This document shows, piece after piece, positions 45,659 through 59,017 of a stretch of DNA of 64,000 nucleotides. The position numbers and the translations under genes are program-made. Location of the stretch: positions 62,001 to 126,000 of the forward strand of contig CALGJV010000008.1 of NCBI GenBank assembly GCA_937928595.1, written 5' to 3'. Source of the stretch: an uncultured Phycisphaerae bacterium. GTDB lineage: Bacteria; Planctomycetota; Phycisphaerae; UBA1845; Fen-1342. Each line of letters opens with the position of its first letter. Position 1 is the first letter of the stretch. The notes beneath the pieces were generated by a model, which worked only from the letters and a program-made list of their open reading frames with translations, was not told the origin of the DNA and did not search any database.

Positions 45659-48600
45659 TCACGGACACCCGCACGCGCCCGCGAGACACGCCACGAACGG
45701 GTCGATGTCGTCGAAATCGACCGCGCCGTCGCAGTCCAGGTCCGCGTGGAGGTGCTCGCAGCCCGGGTACTGGGCGTAGTACCCCTCCGCCCCGCCCAGC
45801 GCCAGCACGAACGCGTCGATGTCATCGAAATCGACGCGCCCGTCGCAGTTGAGATCGCCCCGGATCGACGGCGGCGTGCAGGTGACGTGCTCGATCACGA
45901 AATCATCGACCAACGCCTCGATCAGCGAGCCCGGGTCCGTGTCATTCACCGTGAAGCGGACCTGCACGGTCGCGGTCGGCGTGATGTAGTCGCTCACCCG
46001 CCAGCGTGCGAAGACCCACTCGCTCGCGCTGCGCCGCACTTCCTCGACCGTCGTCCACTGCACGCCGTCCGCGGTGATCGCGACCACCAGGCTGTCGTCG
46101 AGGTTGATGCTCATGTGGTACCAGCGCCAGTAGCTCACGACCGCATCGCGCCCCGCCAGATCGATGACCGGCGAGATCAGGTGCGAGGGACCGCCGTCCA
46201 CGTCGAACTGCGACGGCTGCACGCCCGCCAGCGCTCCGGTCACGTAGCACAGATGGCCCGGATCGGGCGTGTGATCGTCCTCCGGCTGCGTGACGACCGT
46301 ACCGCTCACCACGCGCTGCGGATCCGCCCGCTCCCAGTTGCCGCTGATCGCTCCCGCGAACACGGTCCAGCCGCGCGGCTCCTCGAAGTCATCCGCCAGC
46401 AGCACGGTCCACGCGCCGACCGCGTGCGTGAACGTCTCAACCGGTGCGCCGGCCGGCAGCGTCACCACGCCCTGCGCCGTCGTCGCCACGCTCACGTAAT
46501 AGCTCGGCACCTCCCCGCAGCGGCGCGGTGGAAGCGTCACGCGGTACAGCCCGTCACCAAGCTCCGTCAGCGGCAGCGGCGCGAAGGCCCCGCCGTCCAC
46601 GCGGTACCGGAGCTGCGCGGTCCCCGGCACGATGCTCTGCCCGAAAACCTTGATCCGCACAGCAAGGTCCCACGGCGCGCCCGGCGCCACCACCTCCGGC
46701 AGCCCCTCGGGCAGAGTGATGACGGTCGTCACGTTCGTCGCCCCCGCCCCCACCAGCGCGAACGGCTGCGGGCCGTCCGGCACGCTCGTGCCGACCACCG
46801 CGATCGTCCACTCCCCCGCGGCGGGCTCGGCCACGACCACCTGCTCGATGTTGTTGCGCCGATCCGCCTGCGTCCGCACCGCCGGCGCCGCCGGGTTCAG
46901 CGGGTCGAGCGTCCACGGGTAGTACCGCGTGCCATCCGGCCCCGTGACCTCCAGGTCAAGATCGTTCACGAGCGTCACGGCCGCGTTCGGTACGGCCGGC
47001 ACGTCGTCCCACGCCAGCGTCGTCCGCAGCTCCGGCGTCCCCGGTGCGACCGTGACCGTCCGCACGTACCGGCCGCCCTGATCCACGGCCGCCTCCGCGA
47101 ACGCACCGCTGCGGAGCAGATCCACCGCGGCCTGCACGCGCACCGAGCCGTAGCCGAACTGGTAGTCCGGCCCCGGATTCCCGAGATCCACGGCCGTGTG
47201 TGCGAAAAGCGCCCGGATGAGGGCGTTGCGCGGCAGCGGCTGCCCGGGGAACTGGCGCATGAAGTCCTCGAGCACCAGCGCCGCCAGCCCGCAGACGGTC
47301 GGGGCCGCCATCGACGTCCCGCACAAGGTGGCGTAGGCCGTATCGCTCATCGAGCTGCACGAGGTTACGCCGAAGTCGCCGTCGCTCTGGCAGCCCGGCG
47401 CGCAGACGTCCGGCTTGATCCGGCCGTCGTCCGTCGGGCCCCAGCTGCTGAAGGTCGTCATCGAGTCGTCGTTGGAGTTCACCGCGCCGACGGTCAGATG
47501 GTTCTTGGCGCCCGCGGGCGGCGCGATGCTGTAGTACGCGTCGTAGCCCTCGACGTTGCAGCGCGTGCCGTAGCGCTCGTTGCCCCCGGCCCAGACCACG
47601 CGGAACGGCGTCCCGAGCGCACCGCGGACGATCCCGTCGATCAGAGCGTCCGTCACGCCGTAGTCGCCCTGCCACGCACAGTCGAACCCGTTCGCCTCCA
47701 CGTTGCTGCCCAGCGAAGCGTTGGCCAGCACCGCCCCGCCGAGGTGAATCGCGTCCGCAAAGTCCGTCTCCAAGTCGCCCGGGTTCGTGTACAGCGGCCC
47801 GCTCGACCCGGCCCCTTGAAGCCCGTACGACAGCAGCGTCACGCCCGGCGCCATGCCGCGATACAGCGGGGCGGCCACGCCGGCCCCGCCGATCGTGCCC
47901 GCCACGTGCGTCGCGTGCAGGCTCATCCCCGAGTTGTCCAGCGCGCTCAGCCGCCCCTGGAAGTCCACGTGCGTCGCGCGCGCCGTCCCGCCGTCATACA
48001 CCAGCACCGTCACCCCCGCGCCGGTCAGGTCGTACGGCGGCGCCTGCACCGCGTCCGCCTGTGTCCGCGCCCGGTTGCCGTCGTTCGTCGGCGTCAGCAG
48101 CGGCAGCGGCGGCTCGATCCACTGCACCGCATCCAACGCGGCCAAAGCCGCCACGGCCGTTTCCGGCAACTCCACGACCAGGCCGTTGACCGTCCGCAGC
48201 TCGGCCTGCACCGTCGCACCACACGCCGCGACCGCCCCACGCCCGACGCTCAGCTCGACGTCCGCGTGGAACACCACGTACGCGGCGATGCGGCGCGGTC
48301 CGGCCGCCGGCCGCTCCACGACCGCCCACTCCGGCGCGTCGCCCGCGGCCAGCGCGGGGTGCAGTTTCCACGCCGGCGCCGGCCGAACAACCCCGACCAG
48401 CCCCGGCAGCCCCGCCAGCCCCGACGCGTCCAGCGTCCGCGTGTCCAGCCTCGCGAAGTACGTGCCGCCCCCGAGCGCCCGCAGCAGGCGGACGCCGCGG
48501 CCCGCCAGTTCCGCCCGCTCCGCCGCGCTGCGCGCCCGGTCGAACTGGAGCACCACGTGCGGCCGCCCGGCCTGCGCGGCCGTCCACGCCGCGGCCACCG

Positions 48601-48742
48601 ACTCGACGTCCAGCGCCGGCACCACGGCCGACCCCGCGCGCCACGCCACGGCCTCCGCCCCCGGCGCGCGTGACACCGTTCCGGCCGCCAGCACCACCAG
48701 CCCGATCCAGAGGCCGCCCCGCATCCCTCGCCCGGTCATCAT
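45659..48742 (-). CDS. subtilisin-like (S8) serine peptidase with dockerin-like C-terminus
   Basis: A 1027-residue secreted peptidase. After a signal peptide (GLWIGLVVLAAGTVSRAPGA) and a long propeptide-like region (about 40-230), the S8 domain carries the complete triad: Asp250 in VLVYDGGTA, His276 in LHATHVAGTIG and Ser477 in GTSMAAPTV. A P/homoB-like beta domain follows (LVNDLDLEVTGPDG; WTIAVVGTSV). A further beta domain (about 700-950) resembles a jelly-roll. The C-terminus has two dockerin-like EF-hand units (GDLNCDGRVDFDDIDAFV, DLDCDGAVDFDDIDPFV). The first of two adjacent ATG codons has GAGGG eight bases upstream. It lies 95 bases downstream of the Cys-repeat protein gene on the same strand. 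Confidence 0.88.
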   Translation of the reverse strand: MMTGRGMRGGLWIGLVVLAAGTVSRAPGAEAVAWRAGSAVVPALDVESVAAAWTAAQAGRPHVVLQFDRARSAAERAELAGRGVRLLRALGGGTYFARLDTRTLDASGLAGLPGLVGVVRPAPAWKLHPALAAGDAPEWAVVERPAAGPRRIAAYVVFHADVELSVGRGAVAACGATVQAELRTVNGLVVELPETAVAALAALDAVQWIEPPLPLLTPTNDGNRARTQADAVQAPPYDLTGAGVTVLVYDGGTARATHVDFQGRLSALDNSGMSLHATHVAGTIGGAGVAAPLYRGMAPGVTLLSYGLQGAGSSGPLYTNPGDLETDFADAIHLGGAVLANASLGSNVEANGFDCAWQGDYGVTDALIDGIVRGALGTPFRVVWAGGNERYGTRCNVEGYDAYYSIAPPAGAKNHLTVGAVNSNDDSMTTFSSWGPTDDGRIKPDVCAPGCQSDGDFGVTSCSSMSDTAYATLCGTSMAAPTVCGLAALVLEDFMRQFPGQPLPRNALIRALFAHTAVDLGNPGPDYQFGYGSVRVQAAVDLLRSGAFAEAAVDQGGRYVRTVTVAPGTPELRTTLAWDDVPAVPNAAVTLVNDLDLEVTGPDGTRYYPWTLDPLNPAAPAVRTQADRRNNIEQVVVAEPAAGEWTIAVVGTSVPDGPQPFALVGAGATNVTTVITLPEGLPEVVAPGAPWDLAVRIKVFGQSIVPGTAQLRYRVDGGAFAPLPLTELGDGLYRVTLPPRRCGEVPSYYVSVATTAQGVVTLPAGAPVETFTHAVGAWTVLLADDFEEPRGWTVFAGAISGNWERADPQRVVSGTVVTQPEDDHTPDPGHLCYVTGALAGVQPSQFDVDGGPSHLISPVIDLAGRDAVVSYWRWYHMSINLDDSLVVAITADGVQWTTVEEVRRSASEWVFARWRVSDYITPTATVQVRFTVNDTDPGSLIEALVDDFVIEHVTCTPPSIRGDLNCDGRVDFDDIDAFVLALGGAEGYYAQYPGCEHLHADLDCDGAVDFDDIDPFVACLAGACGCP

Positions 48743-48775
48743 GGCCCATCCCTCGCGTCGCTCGTCCCGAAACAC

Positions 48776-48837: not shown

Positions 48838-51138
48838 CTACCGCGACCCGATCAGCGCCACGAACGGATCGATGTCATCGAAGTTCACGGCACCGTCGAG
48901 GTTGCAGTCCGCGTTCCGCCAGTAGCAATCGACGTGCACCGCGTTGTACGCCGCGGCGCCGCTCAGCGCCAGCACGAAAGCATCGATGTCATCGAGGTCG
49001 ACCCGGCCGTCGCAGTTCAGATCGCCCGGCACCGGGCCCGGGGCCCACGCGGCCGCGTTCGTCGAGTTGCTCTCCGGGTACGGGTGCGTCATCGGCGTCC
49101 AGGTGCCGCCCGGTCCCTGGGCCAGATCATAGACGAACATCGGGTTCTCCGCGCCGTAGACCGTCAGCGCGTAGACCTTGTTGTACCCGCACGCCAGCCC
49201 CCGCGCCGCCGAGTTGCTGGACGGCACCGAGCCGGCCACGTGGGTGATCACGCCCGTGTCGATGTCGATCGACTTCAGCCCCCTGGGCGTCCCGTACTCG
49301 GTGTAGCCGTACAGCTTCCCGTCGGCCGCGTTGTAGTCCAGCGCGAAGAACAGGAACGGGTCGGTCGCGACCAGCAGCGTCATCGCGCCCGTGAGGGGGT
49401 TGATCTCGTAGATGCCCCGCGGGCTGGACCAGTTGGAGTAGCCGAACAGCCGCCCGCGTCCGTACGCCAGCGCGTGCAGGTCCCGTTCCGTATTGCACAG
49501 CAGCACCGGCGGGCCCTCGAGCGGCGCCAGGTAAAGCGGCGAGTGGCTGAAGTCCTCACCGCACATGTACACCGCCCCGTCCGGCCGGCCGGCCGCCCCG
49601 TTGATGGCCAACACGAAGCCGTCCTGCCACGTGACGTTCGGGAAGCCCGCCAGGTTCGTCGTCCGCGTCGGCAGGCTGCCGTACTGCACGCCCGTGAACA
49701 GCGGGCGCTGCGGTCCGGTCGGCGGGGGCGTCGTGGCGGGAACCACCGACAGGTCGTCGTAATAAACGGGCGTCGCGTGCGGCGCGTACAGGTCGATGTT
49801 GCCGATCTGAAGCTGCCCGACCGCGCCGACGATCCAGTCGCCGGTGTACAGGAGCTGATCGTTGTAATATTCGTGCACCGTGCCGAGGGTCGTGGTGAAG
49901 TCCACCTCGATACGGATCTCCACCCACTGGTCGTAAAGGATCGGCAGCGTGCTCGTGCCGCTCGGATCGCGCAGCGCATCCTTCACGCGCCCCGTCGCCG
50001 GGTCGAAGTGCAGTTCCACCGTCCAGAAATACGGCCCATTGTGCTGGTAGTAACTGTTCACGATGAAGTAGGTCGCGCCCGACAGCCCGCTCGGGATGTA
50101 CTGCCACGCCCGGATCGTCCAGCGTCCGCCGTCGAAGTTAGTGAACGGATGGATCGCGTCGGCCGTGTCGTTCACCACGATCGAGTGCGGCGCCGACCGG
50201 TACCGCGCGCTGGTGACCGTGCCCGCCGCCGCCGGGTCGTTGTCCCAGCCGGTCCAGCCGCCGACGTTGTACAGATAGGTGCCGTCCGCGTAGCTGTCGA
50301 AGTTGTCGCTCCACCCCCCGCCCGGCGGGCCCGCCACGCACGGGTTCGGCCAGCATGGGCTTCCGTCGCCCTGGTACGTGCCGCCGGCCGCCGCGCACCG
50401 GGCCGCCGTCAACTCCAAGCACCCCGCCGTCGCGAAACAGCACGCCCCGGTCAGCGGCGGCGGGCACGGGTTCGGCGTGCAGCTCGTGTTGTCGCCGTAG
50501 TACGCGCCACCCAGCGACGCGCAACCGCTGACGGTCACAACCACGCACTGCGCTTCACCGTAGCAGCAGGCCCCGGTCGGCGGCGGCGGCCCCTGCTGGG
50601 CGAACGACGCGCCCGTCAGTGCGATGCTGTAGGCCCCGCTGCCGCCCGCGCTGCCGGCCCAGCTCGCCAACGGACCCGGCGCGCCGGGCCCGTCCGGCGC
50701 ACGTTCGGTGCCCCACGGGGTGTCGTTCCAGATCTCCAGCCCGCCGGCGTTTCGCGGGTCGTAGTCGTACGCCGACATCGCGAGGTAGTACCGGCCGGGC
50801 GCGGTCACGAACTGCGACGTGATCCACGACGCCGCGCCGCACCCGTCCTCGGACATCGAGACGCCGTTCCCGTTCTCGTCGAACAGGTACAGGCAGCTAT
50901 CGATGCTCGTCAGTCCGCAAGTCTTCGCGGAGAACCCGGCCGGATCGTCGATCTGAATCGCATACAGGTCCACGTCGCTGCCGCTGGTCAGCGTGCCGGA
51001 AATGGTCGTCAGCACGCCGGGGCCCACCGTGATCTGGCCGGTAAGCAGGTCGGGCGCGTCGCCGTCTTCGACCCACGTCTGCCCGGGCGCCAACGAGGCC
51101 GCCAGGATCAGCACCGTCGCCAAGCCGAATCTTCGCAT
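48838..51138 (-). CDS. exported protein with Cys-rich GACC repeats and dockerin-like C-terminus
   Basis: A 766-residue secreted protein. It has a signal peptide (FGLATVLILAASLAPGQ), a PPC-like domain (residues about 25-190, SDVDLYAIQIDDPAGF; APGRYYLAMSAYDYD), and then two 40-residue Cys-rich repeats of pattern TGACC, C, C, GG-Y-GD, C-PNPC (about 195-290). A jelly-roll-like module follows (about 300-480) with a carbohydrate-binding look (FDSYADGTYLYNVGGWTGW), then a beta-propeller-like region (about 490-700). It ends in two dockerin-like units (GDLNCDGRVDLDDIDAFV, DCNLDGAVNFDDIDPFV). The start has GGAGG seven bases upstream. Substrate and partner are unknown. Confidence 0.78.
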   Translation of the reverse strand: MRRFGLATVLILAASLAPGQTWVEDGDAPDLLTGQITVGPGVLTTISGTLTSGSDVDLYAIQIDDPAGFSAKTCGLTSIDSCLYLFDENGNGVSMSEDGCGAASWITSQFVTAPGRYYLAMSAYDYDPRNAGGLEIWNDTPWGTERAPDGPGAPGPLASWAGSAGGSGAYSIALTGASFAQQGPPPPTGACCYGEAQCVVVTVSGCASLGGAYYGDNTSCTPNPCPPPLTGACCFATAGCLELTAARCAAAGGTYQGDGSPCWPNPCVAGPPGGGWSDNFDSYADGTYLYNVGGWTGWDNDPAAAGTVTSARYRSAPHSIVVNDTADAIHPFTNFDGGRWTIRAWQYIPSGLSGATYFIVNSYYQHNGPYFWTVELHFDPATGRVKDALRDPSGTSTLPILYDQWVEIRIEVDFTTTLGTVHEYYNDQLLYTGDWIVGAVGQLQIGNIDLYAPHATPVYYDDLSVVPATTPPPTGPQRPLFTGVQYGSLPTRTTNLAGFPNVTWQDGFVLAINGAAGRPDGAVYMCGEDFSHSPLYLAPLEGPPVLLCNTERDLHALAYGRGRLFGYSNWSSPRGIYEINPLTGAMTLLVATDPFLFFALDYNAADGKLYGYTEYGTPRGLKSIDIDTGVITHVAGSVPSSNSAARGLACGYNKVYALTVYGAENPMFVYDLAQGPGGTWTPMTHPYPESNSTNAAAWAPGPVPGDLNCDGRVDLDDIDAFVLALSGAAAYNAVHVDCYWRNADCNLDGAVNFDDIDPFVALIGSR

Positions 51139-51373
51139 GTTCCGTCCTCCAGGTTCCGTCGTCCCTGCCCCCGCCTCGCGCGAAACGCCCCGTCGGCGCT
51201 CCGCCCGCCTGTGCGGGCCGCCCTCGCCGGCCCACACGACCAATGGCTGCGGCCATCGTACTGCATTGCAAAATCCATTGCAATATCAGCATACTTACTC
51301 GTGTTAGACATAATCCATACAATGACTTGTATTGATGGTTGAAAACCGACCGCGCGTGCGTTAATGTCTCGGC
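51139..51373. other. intergenic region with an AT-rich island between divergent genes
   Basis: The left part is GC-rich, but from about 51260 to 51345 the sequence is markedly AT-rich for this genome. It contains two direct CATTGCAA words (51264-51271 and 51276-51283), the palindrome ATTGCAAT (51277-51284), CATAAT (51309-51314, a -10-like hexamer) and the ATACAA/TTGTAT dyad at 51317-51332. It is divergent promoter territory between the Cys-repeat protein (-) and the unknown 411-residue protein (+). Confidence 0.5.
51317..51332. promoter_or_regulatory. perfect dyad, candidate operator
   Basis: ATACAA (51317-51322), TGAC, TTGTAT (51327-51332). It lies 42 bases before the ATG of the 411-residue protein, in the AT-rich island. 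The spacing and symmetry fit a homodimeric regulator, possibly the product of that gene; this is inference. Confidence 0.4.
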
Positions 51374-52609
51374 ATGAACCCGGCCGTCAGGGCTCCGCCG
51401 CCCGCCGATTTCCCCGCCACCGCGGAAGTCATCATCCGGCGGCTTCGCAACGCGCTGGCCGCCGTGGTCGCCGGCGTGCCCGGCTTCACGTTTCGCCGCC
51501 CCAACGACCTCGCGTCGGAGCTCGGGCTGGATCCCAAGCTCGCCTGGAACGTCGGCCGTTGCCTGGAAACCCCCGACCTTTTCGCCTCGGTCCGCTTCCT
51601 GCCCGGCCCCACCGGAATGCGGGTCTTCCTCTGTGCCGCCCAGCGGCGGGCCGCGCCCGCCGAAGCCATCGCCGAGACGCGCGCCGCCTTTGCCGCCTTC
51701 CGTCAACTCGTCCGGACGCACGCCGGCTCGCGCAAGTACTTCAACATGCTGGCGGCCGGGCTCGCCGCGACTGGCGCCGCCCGAGCGGACATCGAGCACC
51801 GCCGCCTGCTGTTCGAGGGGAGCACCTACGTTTGGGGCGTTCAGACCCGCACGCTGTTCCGCGCGAACATCGTGCACCCCGCACCGGACACCGAAACGCA
51901 CGATCTGGTCACGCTCCGCGGCTTCATCGATTTCTGCCGCATGCGGCCCAACGTCGCGTGGCGGCTCGGGCAGTCGTTCTCCGTAGACCGCACGCACCGT
52001 GTCCACCACGACACGCGGCACACGCCGTTGGATCCAGCCTGGTCCGGTCCGGTGCCGTTGGTCCCCGCCTTCTGCTCGCAGCCGATACCGGCCTTCCGAC
52101 CGGTCCGCGGCGTCCACGGCAACACCGAGTTCGAGTTCGTCGAGAGCTCCGTCGGCCACACGGCGCGCATCACCTGCGTGACCGGCGAACTGCTCCGTGC
52201 GGTGGAACCGCGGTACCGCACGGACCTGTACGACGATTTCTGTGTCGCGTTCGCGATCCGCACCCCCGCCGAGGCCCTGGTGTTCGACCTCCTGCTGCAC
52301 CGCGACTTGTTTCCGGACGGAGGCGCGCCGCGGGCGGCGCTGTACAGCGACCTGTTCGGCGGCGGTCTCACGCTCCGGTACGAACCGACGGCCCGGCTGC
52401 CGCTGCACGACCCCGTCACCCGACTCGGGTCCGGCCCCGATGCGGCCTGCACCGCGGACATCCCGCGCTATGTGGACATGCTGCGTTACGCGCTCGCCCG
52501 CGCCGGGTGGAGCGGCGACGAGTTCGACGTGTACCGCCTGCGCATCCAGTACCCCCCCCTTCCCACGACGGTCATGCTGCGGCGGCCACTGCCCGAGCGA
52601 CCGGCCTGA
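51374..52609 (+). CDS. unknown 411-residue protein with possible N-terminal HTH
   Basis: Not recognised as a named family. The N-terminal 75 residues look like a winged or plain helix-turn-helix: AEVIIRRLRNALAAVV and then FRRPNDLASELGLDPKLAW, where LASELGLDPKLAWNVGRCLE resembles a recognition unit. The remaining 330 residues are mixed alpha/beta with no signal peptide or membrane segment (VWGVQTRTLFRANIVHPAP; FEFVESSVGHTARITCV; LYDDFCVAFAIRTPAEALVF). The AT-rich upstream region with a perfect dyad fits an autoregulated gene. No ribosome-binding site is obvious. It is convergent with the NhaD-type antiporter (10 bases apart). Confidence 0.65.
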   Translation: MNPAVRAPPPADFPATAEVIIRRLRNALAAVVAGVPGFTFRRPNDLASELGLDPKLAWNVGRCLETPDLFASVRFLPGPTGMRVFLCAAQRRAAPAEAIAETRAAFAAFRQLVRTHAGSRKYFNMLAAGLAATGAARADIEHRRLLFEGSTYVWGVQTRTLFRANIVHPAPDTETHDLVTLRGFIDFCRMRPNVAWRLGQSFSVDRTHRVHHDTRHTPLDPAWSGPVPLVPAFCSQPIPAFRPVRGVHGNTEFEFVESSVGHTARITCVTGELLRAVEPRYRTDLYDDFCVAFAIRTPAEALVFDLLLHRDLFPDGGAPRAALYSDLFGGGLTLRYEPTARLPLHDPVTRLGSGPDAACTADIPRYVDMLRYALARAGWSGDEFDVYRLRIQYPPLPTTVMLRRPLPERPA

Positions 52610-52619
52610 GCCGCGCCGC

Positions 52620-54113
52620 CTAGCCGCGGAAGAACAGGAACGTCAGCCCGAGGAACAGCGGGATCAGGACGCCGCACGAGTAAGCCATGTAGCCGAAGAA
52701 GCTCGGCATCTTCACGCCCGACTGCTCCGCGATCGCCTTGACCATGAAGTTGGGCCCGTTGCCGATGTACGTGTTCGCGCCCATGAACACCGCCCCGCAA
52801 CTGATCGCGATCAGCAGCTCGACCGGGATCTGGCCGGTGGCCGTCCGCACACCGGACAGAACTTGCAGGCCCGGCGGCGTCAGCGTACCGGCCGTCGTGA
52901 AGTACACCACGTACGTCGGCGCGTTGTCGAGGAAGCTGCTCAGGAGACCGGTGGCCCAGAAGAATTGCCACGGCCGCGCCAGGCCCAGCTCCCCGCCGCG
53001 CGCCTGGAGAATCTCGATCGGCACCTGCATCGTGATGAAGATGCCGATGAACAGACACGCCACTTCATTGATCGCGGTATAGTTGAACTGGTTCTCGCGC
53101 CGGTACTCGCGCGCCGTGGTCAACAGCGACAAGCCGGCCAGCACGAGCTGCACGATCTCCCGCAGGTGGTGCGGCGCCTCCCAGCTCGTCCCCGGGAACG
53201 TCTTGCCCGGACTCAGCGTCGCGACCGCCAGCACGACTCCCAGAATCCAGAGGAAGTTGATGCGCCCGGCGATGCTCAGCCCCTGACGCATCCGGTTGTC
53301 CATCTGGATCTCCTGCGGTGCTTCGTGTCGATACGCCCACGAGTCCCACAGGTAATAGATGACCAGCAGGCCGCCGACCATCAGCCCCCACTGCGGCCAC
53401 AGGCGCAGCGTCCACAGGAACTCCACGCCCATGAGGTAGCCGAGAAACAGCGGCGGGTCTCCGATCGGCAGCAGGCTCCCGCCGATGTTGGCCACGATGA
53501 AGATGAAAAACACGACCGTGTGGACCTTGCGCTTCCGCTCGGCGTTGGTGCGCAGCAGAAAGCGGATGAGCACCATGGCCGCGCCGGTCGTGCCGATCAG
53601 ACTGGCCAGCAGCCCGCCCGTCGCGAGGATCGCCGTGTTGACCGCCGGCGTCGCACGCAGGTCGCCCCGCACAACGATGCCGCCCGCAATCACGTACAGG
53701 CTGAACAGCAGCACCATGAAGGGGAAGAACTCCCCGATCACCGCGTGATGCAGCACGGCCTTCACCGTGGCCAGCCCCGGCTCCGTCCGCTTCTCCGCGT
53801 GCGCGGCCGGCGCGCCGGCCGCCGCGTTCGCGTGCGGAGCCGGCGCGGGTTCGTGTCCCTCCGCCTGCGCGGCAGCCGGGTCCCCGTGACCGTCATCGCC
53901 ATGCGTGACCACGCCGGTCGGCCGTGCGCCGTAGTAGGCGAGCGTCACCAGCGCCAAGGCACCGGCCACCAGCAGCTTGTTGCGGTTGTGCTCCCACCAG
54001 TGCGCCGCCGCGTGCACCAGCGGCAGGATCGCAATCGCCAGCAGCAACGCGACAAAGGGCAGGACCCCGAGAATGTGCGGGGCGTAGGTCGCGCTCTCGG
54101 CCAGCAGCAGCAT
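52620..54113 (-). CDS. nhaD: NhaD-type sodium/proton antiporter
   Basis: A 497-residue polytopic membrane protein of the ion transporter superfamily. Hallmarks are IGDPPLFLGYLMG (the GDPPL loop) and the second half SSFLDNAPTYVVY and MGANTYIGNGPNFMVKAI, which are typical of NhaD-like Na+/H+ antiporters. About 12 hydrophobic segments are present. A His/Ala-rich hydrophilic loop at about residues 60-115 (THGDDGHGDPAAAQAEGH) is an unusual insertion that could respond to pH or bind metals. The start at 54113 follows GAGGAG by seven bases. The specific ion is inferred from the family. Confidence 0.85.
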   Translation of the reverse strand: MLLLAESATYAPHILGVLPFVALLLAIAILPLVHAAAHWWEHNRNKLLVAGALALVTLAYYGARPTGVVTHGDDGHGDPAAAQAEGHEPAPAPHANAAAGAPAAHAEKRTEPGLATVKAVLHHAVIGEFFPFMVLLFSLYVIAGGIVVRGDLRATPAVNTAILATGGLLASLIGTTGAAMVLIRFLLRTNAERKRKVHTVVFFIFIVANIGGSLLPIGDPPLFLGYLMGVEFLWTLRLWPQWGLMVGGLLVIYYLWDSWAYRHEAPQEIQMDNRMRQGLSIAGRINFLWILGVVLAVATLSPGKTFPGTSWEAPHHLREIVQLVLAGLSLLTTAREYRRENQFNYTAINEVACLFIGIFITMQVPIEILQARGGELGLARPWQFFWATGLLSSFLDNAPTYVVYFTTAGTLTPPGLQVLSGVRTATGQIPVELLIAISCGAVFMGANTYIGNGPNFMVKAIAEQSGVKMPSFFGYMAYSCGVLIPLFLGLTFLFFRG

Positions 54114-54331
54114 CGCAGTCTCCTCGACCCGGAGCATCGCGGTCGCCCGATCGGGCGCACTCCCGCCGGGCGGTGCAGCGCGGCCGCAGTCTAGCGACGC
54201 GCCGCCGGCGCGCACAGGCGGTACGGACTAACCCTTTCGGCCGGGCGACGCGGCCGGCTGGCGGCCCGGTACCGCCGGGCGCGGCGCACGGGCAAGAGCT
54301 GCGCGTACCGCTTGCGGTCGGTCCCGCCGTT

Positions 54332-54366
54332 CCCGAGAATCCACGTTCTAGGAACCAACGAGAATC
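54332..54366 (+). promoter_or_regulatory. dyad and direct repeats upstream of the RHH-like gene
   Basis: CGAGAATC occurs twice, at 54332-54339 and 54359-54366. Between them is the dyad GTTC-TAG-GAAC (54343-54353). The second repeat lies close to the ribosome-binding site GAGGAG (54369-54374). This layout fits autoregulation by the small ribbon-helix-helix-like product. Confidence 0.35.
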
Positions 54367-54380
54367 TTGAGGAGCCGGCC

Positions 54381-54704
54381 ATGCCCGCCCGCAAGCCGCA
54401 GATCAACTTCCAGGTCGACCGCGCGCTGAAGTTGCTTTACGAGGAAGCGAAGCTGCACGGCCACTTCGTCACGCGCTTCTGCGCCGCCGGGCTGCTCCTC
54501 ATGGTCGAGCACCCCGACCTGCGGGCCCGCGCGCTCGACCGCCTGCGCGAGTGGGAGGACCGTTACGCCGACGCCGCGCCCGAGGCCATCCGGGCGTTCG
54601 TCGCCGGTGCGCAAGCCGCCGTGCAGCGTGGCGCTCGAGGTACTCCGCGAGCGCCGCGAGCTCGCCGTCCGCGAGCCAAGGCAAAACCCAGCCAATCCGC
54701 ATGA
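54381..54704 (+). CDS. small ribbon-helix-helix-like protein with basic tail
   Basis: A 107-residue protein. A beta strand (QINFQVDRALKLLYEEAKLH) followed by two helices (FVTRFCAAGLLLMVEH; RALDRLREWEDRY) matches the CopG/Arc ribbon-helix-helix layout, used by small DNA-binding regulators and antitoxins. GAGGAG lies six bases before the ATG. The last 25 residues (from about residue 82) are Arg/Ala/Pro-rich and are encoded by DNA that also encodes, on the other strand, the apparently better-conserved part of the neighbour. So the true C-terminus may be changed by a lost stop or a frameshift. Function: possible DNA-binding regulator. Confidence 0.65.
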   Translation: MPARKPQINFQVDRALKLLYEEAKLHGHFVTRFCAAGLLLMVEHPDLRARALDRLREWEDRYADAAPEAIRAFVAGAQAAVQRGARGTPRAPRARRPRAKAKPSQSA

Positions 54705-55675: not shown

Positions 55676-55773
55676 CACCACGACCCGGGGGCGAGAACCG
55701 AACGCCGACCGTCCCGGCCCGGCCGGAGGCGGATTGTCGGCCGGTGCCCGGCGCCCGGCCCGGAGGCGAACCG

Positions 55774-57834
55774 ATGTCGAACCGTGACGCGATCCTGGCG
55801 GTGATCGACCGTCATCTGGACGGCGCCCGTTTCCGCCAGCAGCACTGGGAAGGGACGTTTTTCGACTACCTGGACATGGTGACGGCGAACCCGGCGATCG
55901 CCCGGAACGCCTTCCAGCGGGTGTACGACCTGATCCTGCACTTCGGCACGGAGAAGTACCGGTACCTGAAGCAGGAGTTCGTGCACTACAAGTTCTTTGA
56001 CGACCCGTTCGACAACGGCGCGGACGCGGTGTACGGGCTGGACGCGTCGCTGATGCGGCTGGTGGAGTTCTTCAAGTCGGCCGCCCAGGGGTACGGCACC
56101 GATCGCCGCATTCTCCTGCTGCACGGGCCGGTGGGCTCGAGCAAGAGCACGATCGCCCGGCTGCTCAAGAAGGGGCTGGAGTACTACTCGCGGCTGGACG
56201 AGGGCGCGCTGTACAGTTTCACGTGGAAGCTCACGGGCGAGGACGGTGCGGTCGAGCAGCATCCCTGCCCGATGCACGAAGAGCCGCTCAAGCTCATTCC
56301 CCGCCCGGCGCGCAAGGAGATCCTGGCGCAGCTCAACGCGGACCTGCCGGAGGATCGGCAGGTGCGGGTGGACGGCGACCTTGACCCGTTCTGCCGCAAG
56401 ACGTTCGAGGACCTGCTGCTGCGGTACGGCGGGGACTGGCGCAAGGTGCTCGAGCACGTGGTCGTGCGGCGGCTGGTGCTGTCGGAGAAGGACCGCATCG
56501 GGATCGGCACGTTCCAGCCGAAGGACGAGAAGAACCAGGACTCCACCGAGCTGACCGGCGACATCAACTACCGCAAGATCGCGCAGTACGGTTCGGACAG
56601 CGACCCGCGGGCGTTCAACTTCGACGGCGAGCTGAACATCGCCAACCGGGGGCTGTGCGAATTCATCGAGGTGCTCAAGCTCGACGTCGCGTTCCTGTAC
56701 GACCTGCTCGGGGCGTCGCAGGAGCACACGATCAAGCCCAAGAAGTTCGCGCAGACCGACATCGACGAGGTCATCATCGGGCACACCAACGAGCCCGAGT
56801 ACAAGAAGCTCCAGTCCAACGAGCTGATGGAAGCCTTCCGCGACCGCACGATCAAGATCGACATCCCCTACAACATCCGGCTGTCGGACGAGATCAAGAT
56901 CTACGAGAAGGACTTCGGCAAGCACAAGGTCCGCGGCATCCACATCGCGCCGCACACGATCGAGACCGCGGCCATGTGGGCCGTGCTGACGCGTCTGGAG
57001 GAGCCCAAGAAGGCCGGCCTGACGCTGATCCAGAAGCTCAAGCTGTACGACGGCCGCAACATCCCGGGCTTCACCGAGGATTCGGTCAAGGAGCTGCGGG
57101 CGGAGGCCCCGCGCGAGGGCATGCAGGGCATCAGCCCGCGCTACATCCAGGACAAGATCTCCAACGCGCTGGTCGGCGAGCAGGCCCAGAAGGACCGCTG
57201 CATCAATCCGTTCATGGTGATGAACGAGCTGGAGAACGGGCTCTCGCACCACTCGCTGATCACGGACGAGGAGCAGAAGAAACGCTACCGCGAGCTGCTG
57301 AGCGTGGTCCGCGAGGAATACGAGGACATGCTCAAGGCCGAGGTGCAGCGGGCCATCTCCGCGGACGAGGACGCCATCCGCCGCTTGTGCACCAACTACA
57401 TCGAGAACGTGCGGGCCTACACCCAGCACGAGAAGGTGCGGAACAAGTACACCGGCCGCGACGAGGAGCCCGACGAGCGCCTGATGCGCGCCATCGAGGA
57501 AAAGATCGACATCCCGGAGTCCCGCAAGGACGACTTCCGGCAGGAGATCATGAACTACATCGGCGCGCTGGCACTGGACGGCAAGAAGTTCGAGTACAAC
57601 ACGAACGCCCGGCTCCACAAGGCGCTCGAGCTCAAGCTGTTCGAGGACAGCCGCGACACAATCAAGCTCAAGAACGTCGTGTCGGGCGTGGTCGACGACG
57701 AGACCCAGGCCAAGATCGACGTCGTCAAGCAGCGCCTGATCAAGTTCTTCGGCTACAACGAGACCAGCGCGACGGACGTGCTGAACTACGTGGCGAGCAT
57801 CTTCGCCCGCGGCGACACGAAGCGCGAGGACTAG
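55774..57834 (+). CDS. prkA: PrkA family serine protein kinase / AAA+ protein
   Basis: A 686-residue PrkA (YeaG-like) protein, with an N-terminal AAA+ ATPase domain and a C-terminal kinase-like PrkA domain. Walker A is [16 protein letters not shown] (Lys124). Other family words are [58 protein letters not shown] and [15 protein letters not shown]. In E. coli YeaG with YeaH acts in nitrogen-starvation and stress responses; in Bacillus PrkA affects sporulation. CGGAGG lies seven bases before the ATG. The YeaH-like gene follows 79 bases later. Activity as a kinase, a protease or an ATPase cannot be told from sequence. Confidence 0.93.
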
Positions 57835-57913: not shown

Positions 57914-59017
57914 GTGGACATCGGTCCGCTGAAAATCGAGAAGGACCACCAGCGGTTCCGGCAGATCGTCAAGGGCCGCATCCGCAAGGACCTGCGCCGC
58001 TTCCTCACGCGCGGCGAGCTGATCGGCAAGGAGGGCAAGCACCTCGTCAGCATCCCCGTGCCCGGCATCGAGCTGCCGCATTTCCGCTACGGCGACAACA
58101 ACGATCAGGGCGTGGGGCAGGGTGACGGCGACGCCGGCCAGGCCGTCGACGGCGCGGGCGTGGGCCCCGGCGGCACCGAGCCCGGCCGGCACCTGCTCGA
58201 GGTGGAAATCTCGCTCGAGGAGCTGGCCGACATCCTCGGCGAGGAACTCCAGCTCCCGCGCATCGAGCCCAAGGGCCAGCACAACATCACGGCCGTCAAG
58301 GAGCGGTACAGCAGCATCCGCCAGACCGGCCCCGAGTCGCTGCGGCACTTCAAGCGCACGTTCCGGCGGGCCCTGCGCCGGCTGATCATGTCGGGCGTCT
58401 ACGACCCGGACAACCCGCGGATCATCTTCGAGCGCTCCGACAAGCTCTACCGCAGCTGGAAGCCGATCCGCAAGCCGCAGTCCAACGCCGTGATCGTCTA
58501 CATGATGGACGTGTCCGGGTCGATGGGCCACGAGCAGAAGGAGCTCGTGCGGCTGGAGGCCTTCTGGATCGACGCCTGGCTCCGGCGCAACTACGACGGC
58601 ATCGAGAGCCGCTACATCGTGCACGACGTCCGGGCCCAGGAAGTCGACCGCGAGACCTTCTTCCACCTCCGCGAGGACGGCGGCACCAAGATCTCCAGCG
58701 CCTTCCGCTGCTGCCAGGAACTGCTCGACAAGCACTACGCCGCCAGCGAATGGAACATCTACCTGTTCCACTTCTCCGACGGCGACAACTCGTCCGAGGC
58801 CGACTCGCGCGAGTGCTGCCAGATCCTGCGCGAGGCCCTGCTGCCCGTCTCGAACCAGTTCGGCTACTGCCAGGTCGCCAGCGCGTACGGCAGCGGCCAT
58901 TTCATCAACGTCCTGCGCGAGCAGCTCGGCACCGCCGAGAACGTGGTCACGTCGCGCGTGAACACCAAGGACGACATCTACGACAGCATCAAGGCGTTCT
59001 TCGCCAAGGGCCGCTGA
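57914..59017 (+). CDS. yeaH: YeaH/YhbH family (DUF444) VWA-type protein
   Basis: A 367-residue protein of the DUF444 family, the usual partner of PrkA. It has a basic N-terminal part ([20 protein letters not shown]), a Gly/Asp-rich linker at about 57-80, and a VWA domain whose MIDAS motif is [12 protein letters not shown] (Asp199). Later segments [15 protein letters not shown]-like and [14 protein letters not shown] complete the metal site region. The GTG start at 57914 gives [15 protein letters not shown]. The third member of the usual trio, SpoVR, is absent; shikimate kinase follows instead after 10 bases. Confidence 0.9.

Follow-up and report, generated by a model that had tools for sequence, protein, structure and literature searches.

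A Planctomycetota family of probable DNA-binding regulators encoded beside exported surface proteins

Local one-component regulators of the LysR, TetR and GntR types are encoded divergent to their targets. The locus described here resembles them in that the putative regulator adjoins its target and the operator would lie between the two genes, close to the -35 box of the target. Unlike those types, the new family has exported proteins as its putative targets, and searches of 50 members with the Pfam domains for TetR, LysR, GntR and MarR returned a single weak TetR_N line (E 0.027) and none for the other three.

Control of exported proteins has its own described precedent. The PEP-CTERM/EpsH genes of proteobacteria are described as having a shared sigma-54 site and the regulator PrsR (PMC1569441), and one PEP-CTERM gene is reported to be sigma-54 dependent (PMC9850573). 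In the account of PrsK-PrsR, a conserved control site lies upstream of PEP-CTERM genes and the regulator family has a matching distribution, a likeness to the present case; there, one sigma-54 enhancer-binding response regulator with a shared site is proposed for many genes (PMC1569441). By contrast, the putative promoters at the planctomycete loci are of the sigma-70 type, the protein encoded next to each target is unrelated to PrsR and the dyad differs from clade to clade, and the receiver and sigma-54 interaction domains of the PrsR type were found by Pfam in 0 of 50 members at E 0.1. For planctomycetes, dockerin-based complexes are proposed for a Phycisphaerae lineage (PMC6461901) and a PEP-CTERM gene is noted in a gene cluster (PMC7293339); among the papers listed on planctomycete PEP-CTERM, exosortase or dockerin regulation, none describes such a regulator family.

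The locus lies in the window, a 64,000-nucleotide stretch of DNA from an uncultured Phycisphaerae bacterium. Its 411-residue product is, we believe, probably a one-component regulator of an undescribed planctomycete family that is dedicated to the divergent exported surface protein, and the arrangement points to a private switch for such a surface protein. The choice that planctomycetes make among PEP-CTERM and dockerin-type surface proteins thereby becomes directly testable, with the family naming both target and control site.

The window locus and the putative partner promoter

A gap of 235 bases separates the regulator ORF from the divergent partner gene. The GC content is 39% in 51250-51349 and 70-78% in the flanking 100 bases on each side. 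The features of the locus are as follows.

48838..51138, minus strand: divergent partner gene; 766-residue protein with a signal-peptide-like N-terminus, a DVUA0089-family domain and Cys repeats
51138 and 51146-51150, minus strand: partner start ATG and its GGAGG, read from the sequence
51255..51260, minus strand: putative -10 box TACGAT of the partner promoter, placed by conservation and the family-wide spacing peak
51260..51345: AT-rich island between the regulator and partner genes, read from the sequence
51264..51271: second CATTGCAA, inside the promoter spacer of the partner; absent as a conserved element in orthologues
51278..51283, minus strand: putative -35 box TTGCAA of the partner promoter, placed by conservation in orthologues
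51278..51288, no strand assigned: conserved TTGCAATATCA; the -35 box with adjoining bases, putatively the core or the edge of the sequence that the regulator binds
51317..51332, no strand assigned: dyad ATACAA-TGAC-TTGTAT; extended form 51313-51336, 9/10 arm pairs
51339..51367, plus strand: possible regulator promoter, TTGAAA (51339-51344), 17 bp, TAATGT (51362-51367), by eye
51374..52609, plus strand: 411-residue regulator ORF; member of an unnamed Planctomycetota family, without a curated family
51494..51568, plus strand: HTH-like segment, residues 41-65, deduced from helices 45-50 and 54-65 of the structural model

The sequence-only reading had described the AT-rich island, its direct repeats, the dyad and the 411-residue ORF, and all are present as described: CATTGCAA occurs twice (51264 and 51276) and ATTGCAAT once, at 51277. 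A dip of this kind is typical of the regulator family and is stronger than at control genes, the median drop of the lowest 60-bp GC being -0.26 in 119 members and -0.11 in 172 control genes.

The dyad itself did not survive as an operator. Dinucleotide shuffling produced one as good in 87 of 1000 trials on the island and in 96 of 1000 on the whole intergenic region, a chance level of about 0.09, and it was absent from all four orthologues (L004-L007) even when two mismatches were allowed; we therefore rejected it as a functional site. Footprinting of the island across relatives, which had been proposed as a check, gave a divided answer, for the dyad is not kept and the element TGMTA-TTGCAR, a -35 box with its upstream edge, is kept in 5/5 orthologues (the window and L004-L007) and occurs once elsewhere in 61 genomes. 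Palindromes in single sequences were uninformative more generally: only 21 of 120 upstream regions of the family beat all 20 of their own shuffles, so that the case rests on alignment and motif and not on single dyads.

The conserved element has the form of a promoter facing the partner. TTGCAR-17-TAnnnT on the minus strand is found in all five orthologues, at near-equal distance from the gene, and in 0 of 4000 random 280-mers; in the window the putative promoter reads TTGCAA-17-TACGAT. Because orthologue conservation places the -35 box at 51278-51283, the CATTGCAA copy at 51276 would contain it. Over 61 genomes, the full pattern TGMTATTGCAR-17-TAnnnT has six matches, five of them at the orthologues, and its control pattern has none. 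The shorter YTGCAATAKCA alone, with 17 matches in 5 genomes (5 at the orthologues) and 9 for its control pattern, was discarded as too short to be diagnostic. A strict sigma-70 consensus scan of the window found 0 promoters, the partner's and the regulator's candidates included; those candidates were placed by conservation and spacing instead.

Several neighbours were also noted. Adjoining the partner, a second large ORF (45659-48775, minus strand) has a signal-peptide-like start and two terminal GDLNCDGRVDFDDID-type dockerin-like repeats, and its product resembles, by eye, a secreted subtilisin-type protease. The convergent gene 3' of the regulator (52620-54215, minus strand) matches CitMHS_2 (Pfam, E 1.6e-153), a putative transporter, and is outside the regulator-partner pair. 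Farther along, a 130-residue ORF with an Arg/Ala-rich end (54312-54704, plus strand) belongs to no family above cut-off (best TetR_C_28, E 0.011), and the ORFs at 55744-57834 and 57914-59017 (plus strand) resemble what we take to be a PrkA kinase and YeaH pair.

The protein family and its exported partners

The 411-residue protein is single-copy in its own genome (3.7 Mb), and its nearest named relatives are Phycisphaerae MAGs. Of 61 close genomes, 31 contain family relatives (1-10 matches each, some partial), as do 72 of 298 genomes in a sample of the class and 24 of 294 in a sample of the phylum; 16 of these 24 lie outside the class. Thus the protein, by sequence, is no orphan and belongs to an undescribed Planctomycetota family, and the earlier suggestion of a lineage-specific regulator does not hold for a family that occurs widely in the class and also outside it. 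The loci yielded 127 family ORFs, of which 123 were used, almost all of them spanning the whole of a single 394-position profile; L027, L033, L127 and L128 were excluded as broken or duplicate, and the duplicates L002, L003 and L126 had already been set aside. The pairing count used 119 of the 123 and the palindrome and motif analyses 120, the remainder having too short an upstream sequence. At L049 and L068, two family members share one short stretch in the same orientation, each with its own diverged upstream region.

That the ORF had no recognised family was borne out by Pfam and NCBIfam, neither of which contains one; its sole Pfam line was NNH6 (E=0.09, below that model's cut-off). Scans of 50 members with Pfam, NCBIfam and PADLOC likewise gave single-member lines only and no curated family. 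The three NCBIfam families had one member each, and the best match (E 0.0008, a ketoacyl reductase model) was taken for chance. A role in defence was set aside, as PADLOC gave four families, each in 1 of 50 members and with a best E of 0.028. We also set aside a mobile-element origin: PHROGs produced 0 matches among the 50 members, and the window protein was without a match in phages, plasmids and viral contigs (the last by peptide patterns). A profile search of PDB sequences with the family returned nothing significant.

Structure prediction, the check suggested for the 411-residue protein, gave a helical N-terminus with a putative HTH. The AlphaFold2 model of residues 1-126 has a mean pLDDT of 87 and helices at 13-33, 45-50, 54-65, 69-75, 79-91 and 96-125, the second and third of which form an HTH-like pair. 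Fold matches of this model in the PDB are weak and mixed, the best being to a helical bundle at Z 6.3. XRE/Cro-CI (lambda-repressor-like) proteins share with it an all-helical N-terminal domain in which the HTH is the second and third helix; against this likeness, the XRE-type matches lie below the level of relationship and are tied with unrelated bundles (3f6w, Z 5.4, 82 residues, rmsd 4.8; further matches are 4i6u, Z 4.2, 75 residues, rmsd 4.2, and 7t5u, Z 4.0, 66 residues, rmsd 2.9), and XRE-type HTH models of Pfam matched 0 of 50 members at E 0.1. A full-length model was confident for about residues 13-115 only (mean pLDDT 47), and fold searches with it gave nothing usable; the C-terminal domain (about residues 130-411) is predicted, without confidence, to be beta-rich. 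On this model, the 411-residue protein is probably a DNA-binding regulator whose helical N-terminal domain contains an HTH-like pair.

What recurs among the neighbouring ORFs of the family is a signal-peptide gene, most often a divergent one. Such a neighbour was called for 72 of 119 members and for 24 of 172 control genes (Fisher p about 1e-16), the controls being drawn from 20 genomes that carry the family, in stretches that hold no family member; by this crude test, 47 of the 119 members lack a divergent partner. Among 29 members from outside the class that played no part in finding the pattern, 18 have a divergent signal-peptide gene, a figure for members only. It is highly improbable that the pairing is a product of chance or annotation, overcounted from abundant secreted proteins and false ORFs in GC-rich sequence. 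The gene and signal-peptide test is a crude home-made one under which control genes score 14%, and at least 2 of the 18 held-out partner calls (L204 and L213) look, by eye, like membrane or unrelated proteins; yet the same test, applied equally to members and controls, separates the two sets, the motif and spacing described below are independent of partner ORF calls, and the complete partners mostly have recognisable ends.

Those ends were read from the 39 of 72 partners that terminate inside their own short locus, a set in which long partners are under-represented. Thirty are PEP-CTERM-like and 3 have dockerin-like repeats; 4 of the remaining 6 end, by eye, in a PTP-type variant. At NCBIfam cut-offs, 4 of 10 partners passed TIGR02595 PEP-CTERM and 1 dockerin_GC; at Pfam cut-offs, 2 of 10 passed PEP-CTERM and 1 Dockerin_1. 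The window's own partner passes only the DVUA0089-family model and has no Pfam dockerin match, and two C-terminal GDLNCDG-type (dockerin-like) repeats can be read in it by eye. The partners are exported proteins from several different families.

Family motif and putative clade-specific operators

A palindromic motif obtained by expectation maximization across the family reached a log-likelihood of 341, compared with 63-67 in five shuffled sets given equal restarts; its unsymmetric form is tctt..CAAgt.TcT.t.gagAaAtTTtt.gaaA. Of the 120 upstream regions, 72 contain it at 11 bits or more and 48 do not; at that score it is seen once among 800 random stretches and never among the regions upstream of the 172 control genes. 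Because the motif was trained on these 120, the held-out loci (40, one dropped for short upstream) provide the fairer figures: outside the class 6 of 29 have it at 11 bits, 2 of these with a -10, and in the same class 5 of 10 have it, 3 of these with a -10. The dyad symmetry of the sites is conserved: 29 of 72 pair at 6-7 of 7 positions, whereas 300 column shuffles gave 4.6 such sites on average and never more than 12, and 110 other offsets gave no more than 6. Conserved symmetry of this sort would be expected from a dimeric protein whose specificity diverges.

With the motif as common reference for alignment, 27 of 72 sites have a minus-strand -10 box exactly 17 bp from the -35 and 47 of 72 have one at 16-18 bp, whereas counts at other offsets have a mean of 0.5 and a maximum of 3. 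The conserved CAAG of the motif corresponds to the minus-strand -35 box, 17 bases from the -10, and this fixed offset places the dyad at the upstream edge of the divergent partner's -35 box; the putative target promoters have the sigma-70-type form TTGnnn-17-TAnnnT. The same alignment bears on a classical autoregulator, in which the dyad at 51317-51332 would serve mainly the regulator's own promoter and effects on the secreted gene would be incidental. That dyad does lie just upstream of the possible regulator -35 (51339), and in one clade, discussed below, the dyad precedes the regulator gene; the spacing is nevertheless fixed to the partner's -10, no plus-strand -10 peak relative to the motif was found in the aligned family sites, and the window's dyad is unconserved and at chance level. 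We consider such an autoregulator very unlikely.

The reading we prefer is a regulator of the divergent partner. That the island controls the divergent secreted protein is the best supported of the earlier claims, as pairing, motif spacing and promoter conservation in orthologues agree on it. In the mechanism that we propose, the regulator would act as a dimer: its N-terminal helix-turn-helix domain would contact DNA where the -35 box of the partner's putative sigma-70-type promoter has its upstream edge, and the bound protein would gate RNA polymerase at that promoter. The C-terminal domain presumably serves in signal sensing or in dimerisation. We lean slightly to repression of the partner, given the overlap of the longer dyads with the -35 box; an activator would also suit the fixed distance to the -35.

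Upstream of the window's own regulator no match to the family motif scores above -0.1, so the operator of this clade is deduced from position: TTGCAATATCA sits at the same place relative to the partner promoter as the family dyad does elsewhere. As aligned, the conserved part in this clade is the -35 edge only, and part of that appears to be simply promoter. One could therefore suppose that the conserved element is the secreted gene's promoter and nothing more, that the dyads serve other regulators and that the 411-residue protein has another cytoplasmic job, for example to chaperone or process the exported protein encoded next to it. The window clade's conserved bases, mostly -35 and -10 boxes, agree with this, as do sequence searches that find no DNA-binding family. 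A promoter as such fails, however, to explain the dyad symmetry upstream of the -35 box, the occurrence of clade-specific dyads almost only beside family genes, and a dyad that precedes the regulator's promoter where the partner is downstream; we judge this explanation improbable.

The clades with their own dyads include GTTTC, TGTCA and TTTCTCTAGAGAAA. In 7 whole genomes, TTGTTTCNGAAACNNT has 5 matches, all adjoining family genes (control pattern 0). With one mismatch allowed, CAAGTGTCANNNNTGACA has 7 matches in 6 genomes, again all adjoining family genes (control pattern 2), and CAAGTNTCNNNNGNGAAAA in 6 genomes has 5 exact matches by family genes and 2 one-mismatch matches elsewhere (control pattern 1). 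Since the clade patterns were built from these same genes, the informative part is the scarcity of other matches: in the genomes searched, the four tested clade operators occur almost only beside family genes. Similarity of operators follows that of the recognition helix (partial r 0.08, with 0 of 200 label permutations as high) no more closely than that of the C-terminal domain (0.08), and we discarded this covariation as uninformative. The clade-specific dyads would provide a natural set of matched protein-DNA pairs for studying how specificity diverges. A bolder version of the preferred reading is a radiated family of switches, with one co-evolving dyad per surface protein, up to ten non-interfering pairs in a genome, and a C-terminal domain that monitors the exported partner or its ligand. 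If true, each such surface protein would have its own feedback sensor; we think this version unlikely.

One clade departs from the divergent layout and so serves as a natural control. Thirteen members with a GTTTCnGAAAC-type dyad were picked from motif and tree before the downstream count, although after some of their downstream partners had already been recognised, and all 13 have a same-direction signal-peptide gene just downstream, as compared with 26 of 177 control genes and 15 of 109 members in the rest of the family. Of those with enough upstream DNA, 10 of 11 lack a divergent partner, the candidate at L061 being 628 bases away, and a minus-strand -10 was found in 0 of 8 scored sites. 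Instead, 12 of the 13 members have a plus-strand [CT]TGnnn-16/17-TAnnnT located 10-12 bases past the centre of the dyad, a pattern seen at 2 of 2000 random starts. The tree clade has a 14th member, L060, which lacks the dyad and, by the test, has no partner. Here the dyad precedes a promoter that would read both regulator and partner, and the site thus follows the secreted gene. The earlier proposal of autoregulation accordingly divides: the window's conserved site is tied to the partner promoter, and autoregulation is suggested only for the GTTTC clade, where regulator and partner follow one shared, one-direction promoter.

Finally, some family regulators look leaderless. A -10-like box lies 5-8 bases before the start in 35 of 120 members and in 6 of 120 under a shifted-frame control; in the window (51362-51374), the TAATGT box at 51362-51367 is, by eye, six bases 5' of the regulator ATG, which would make for a leaderless transcript.
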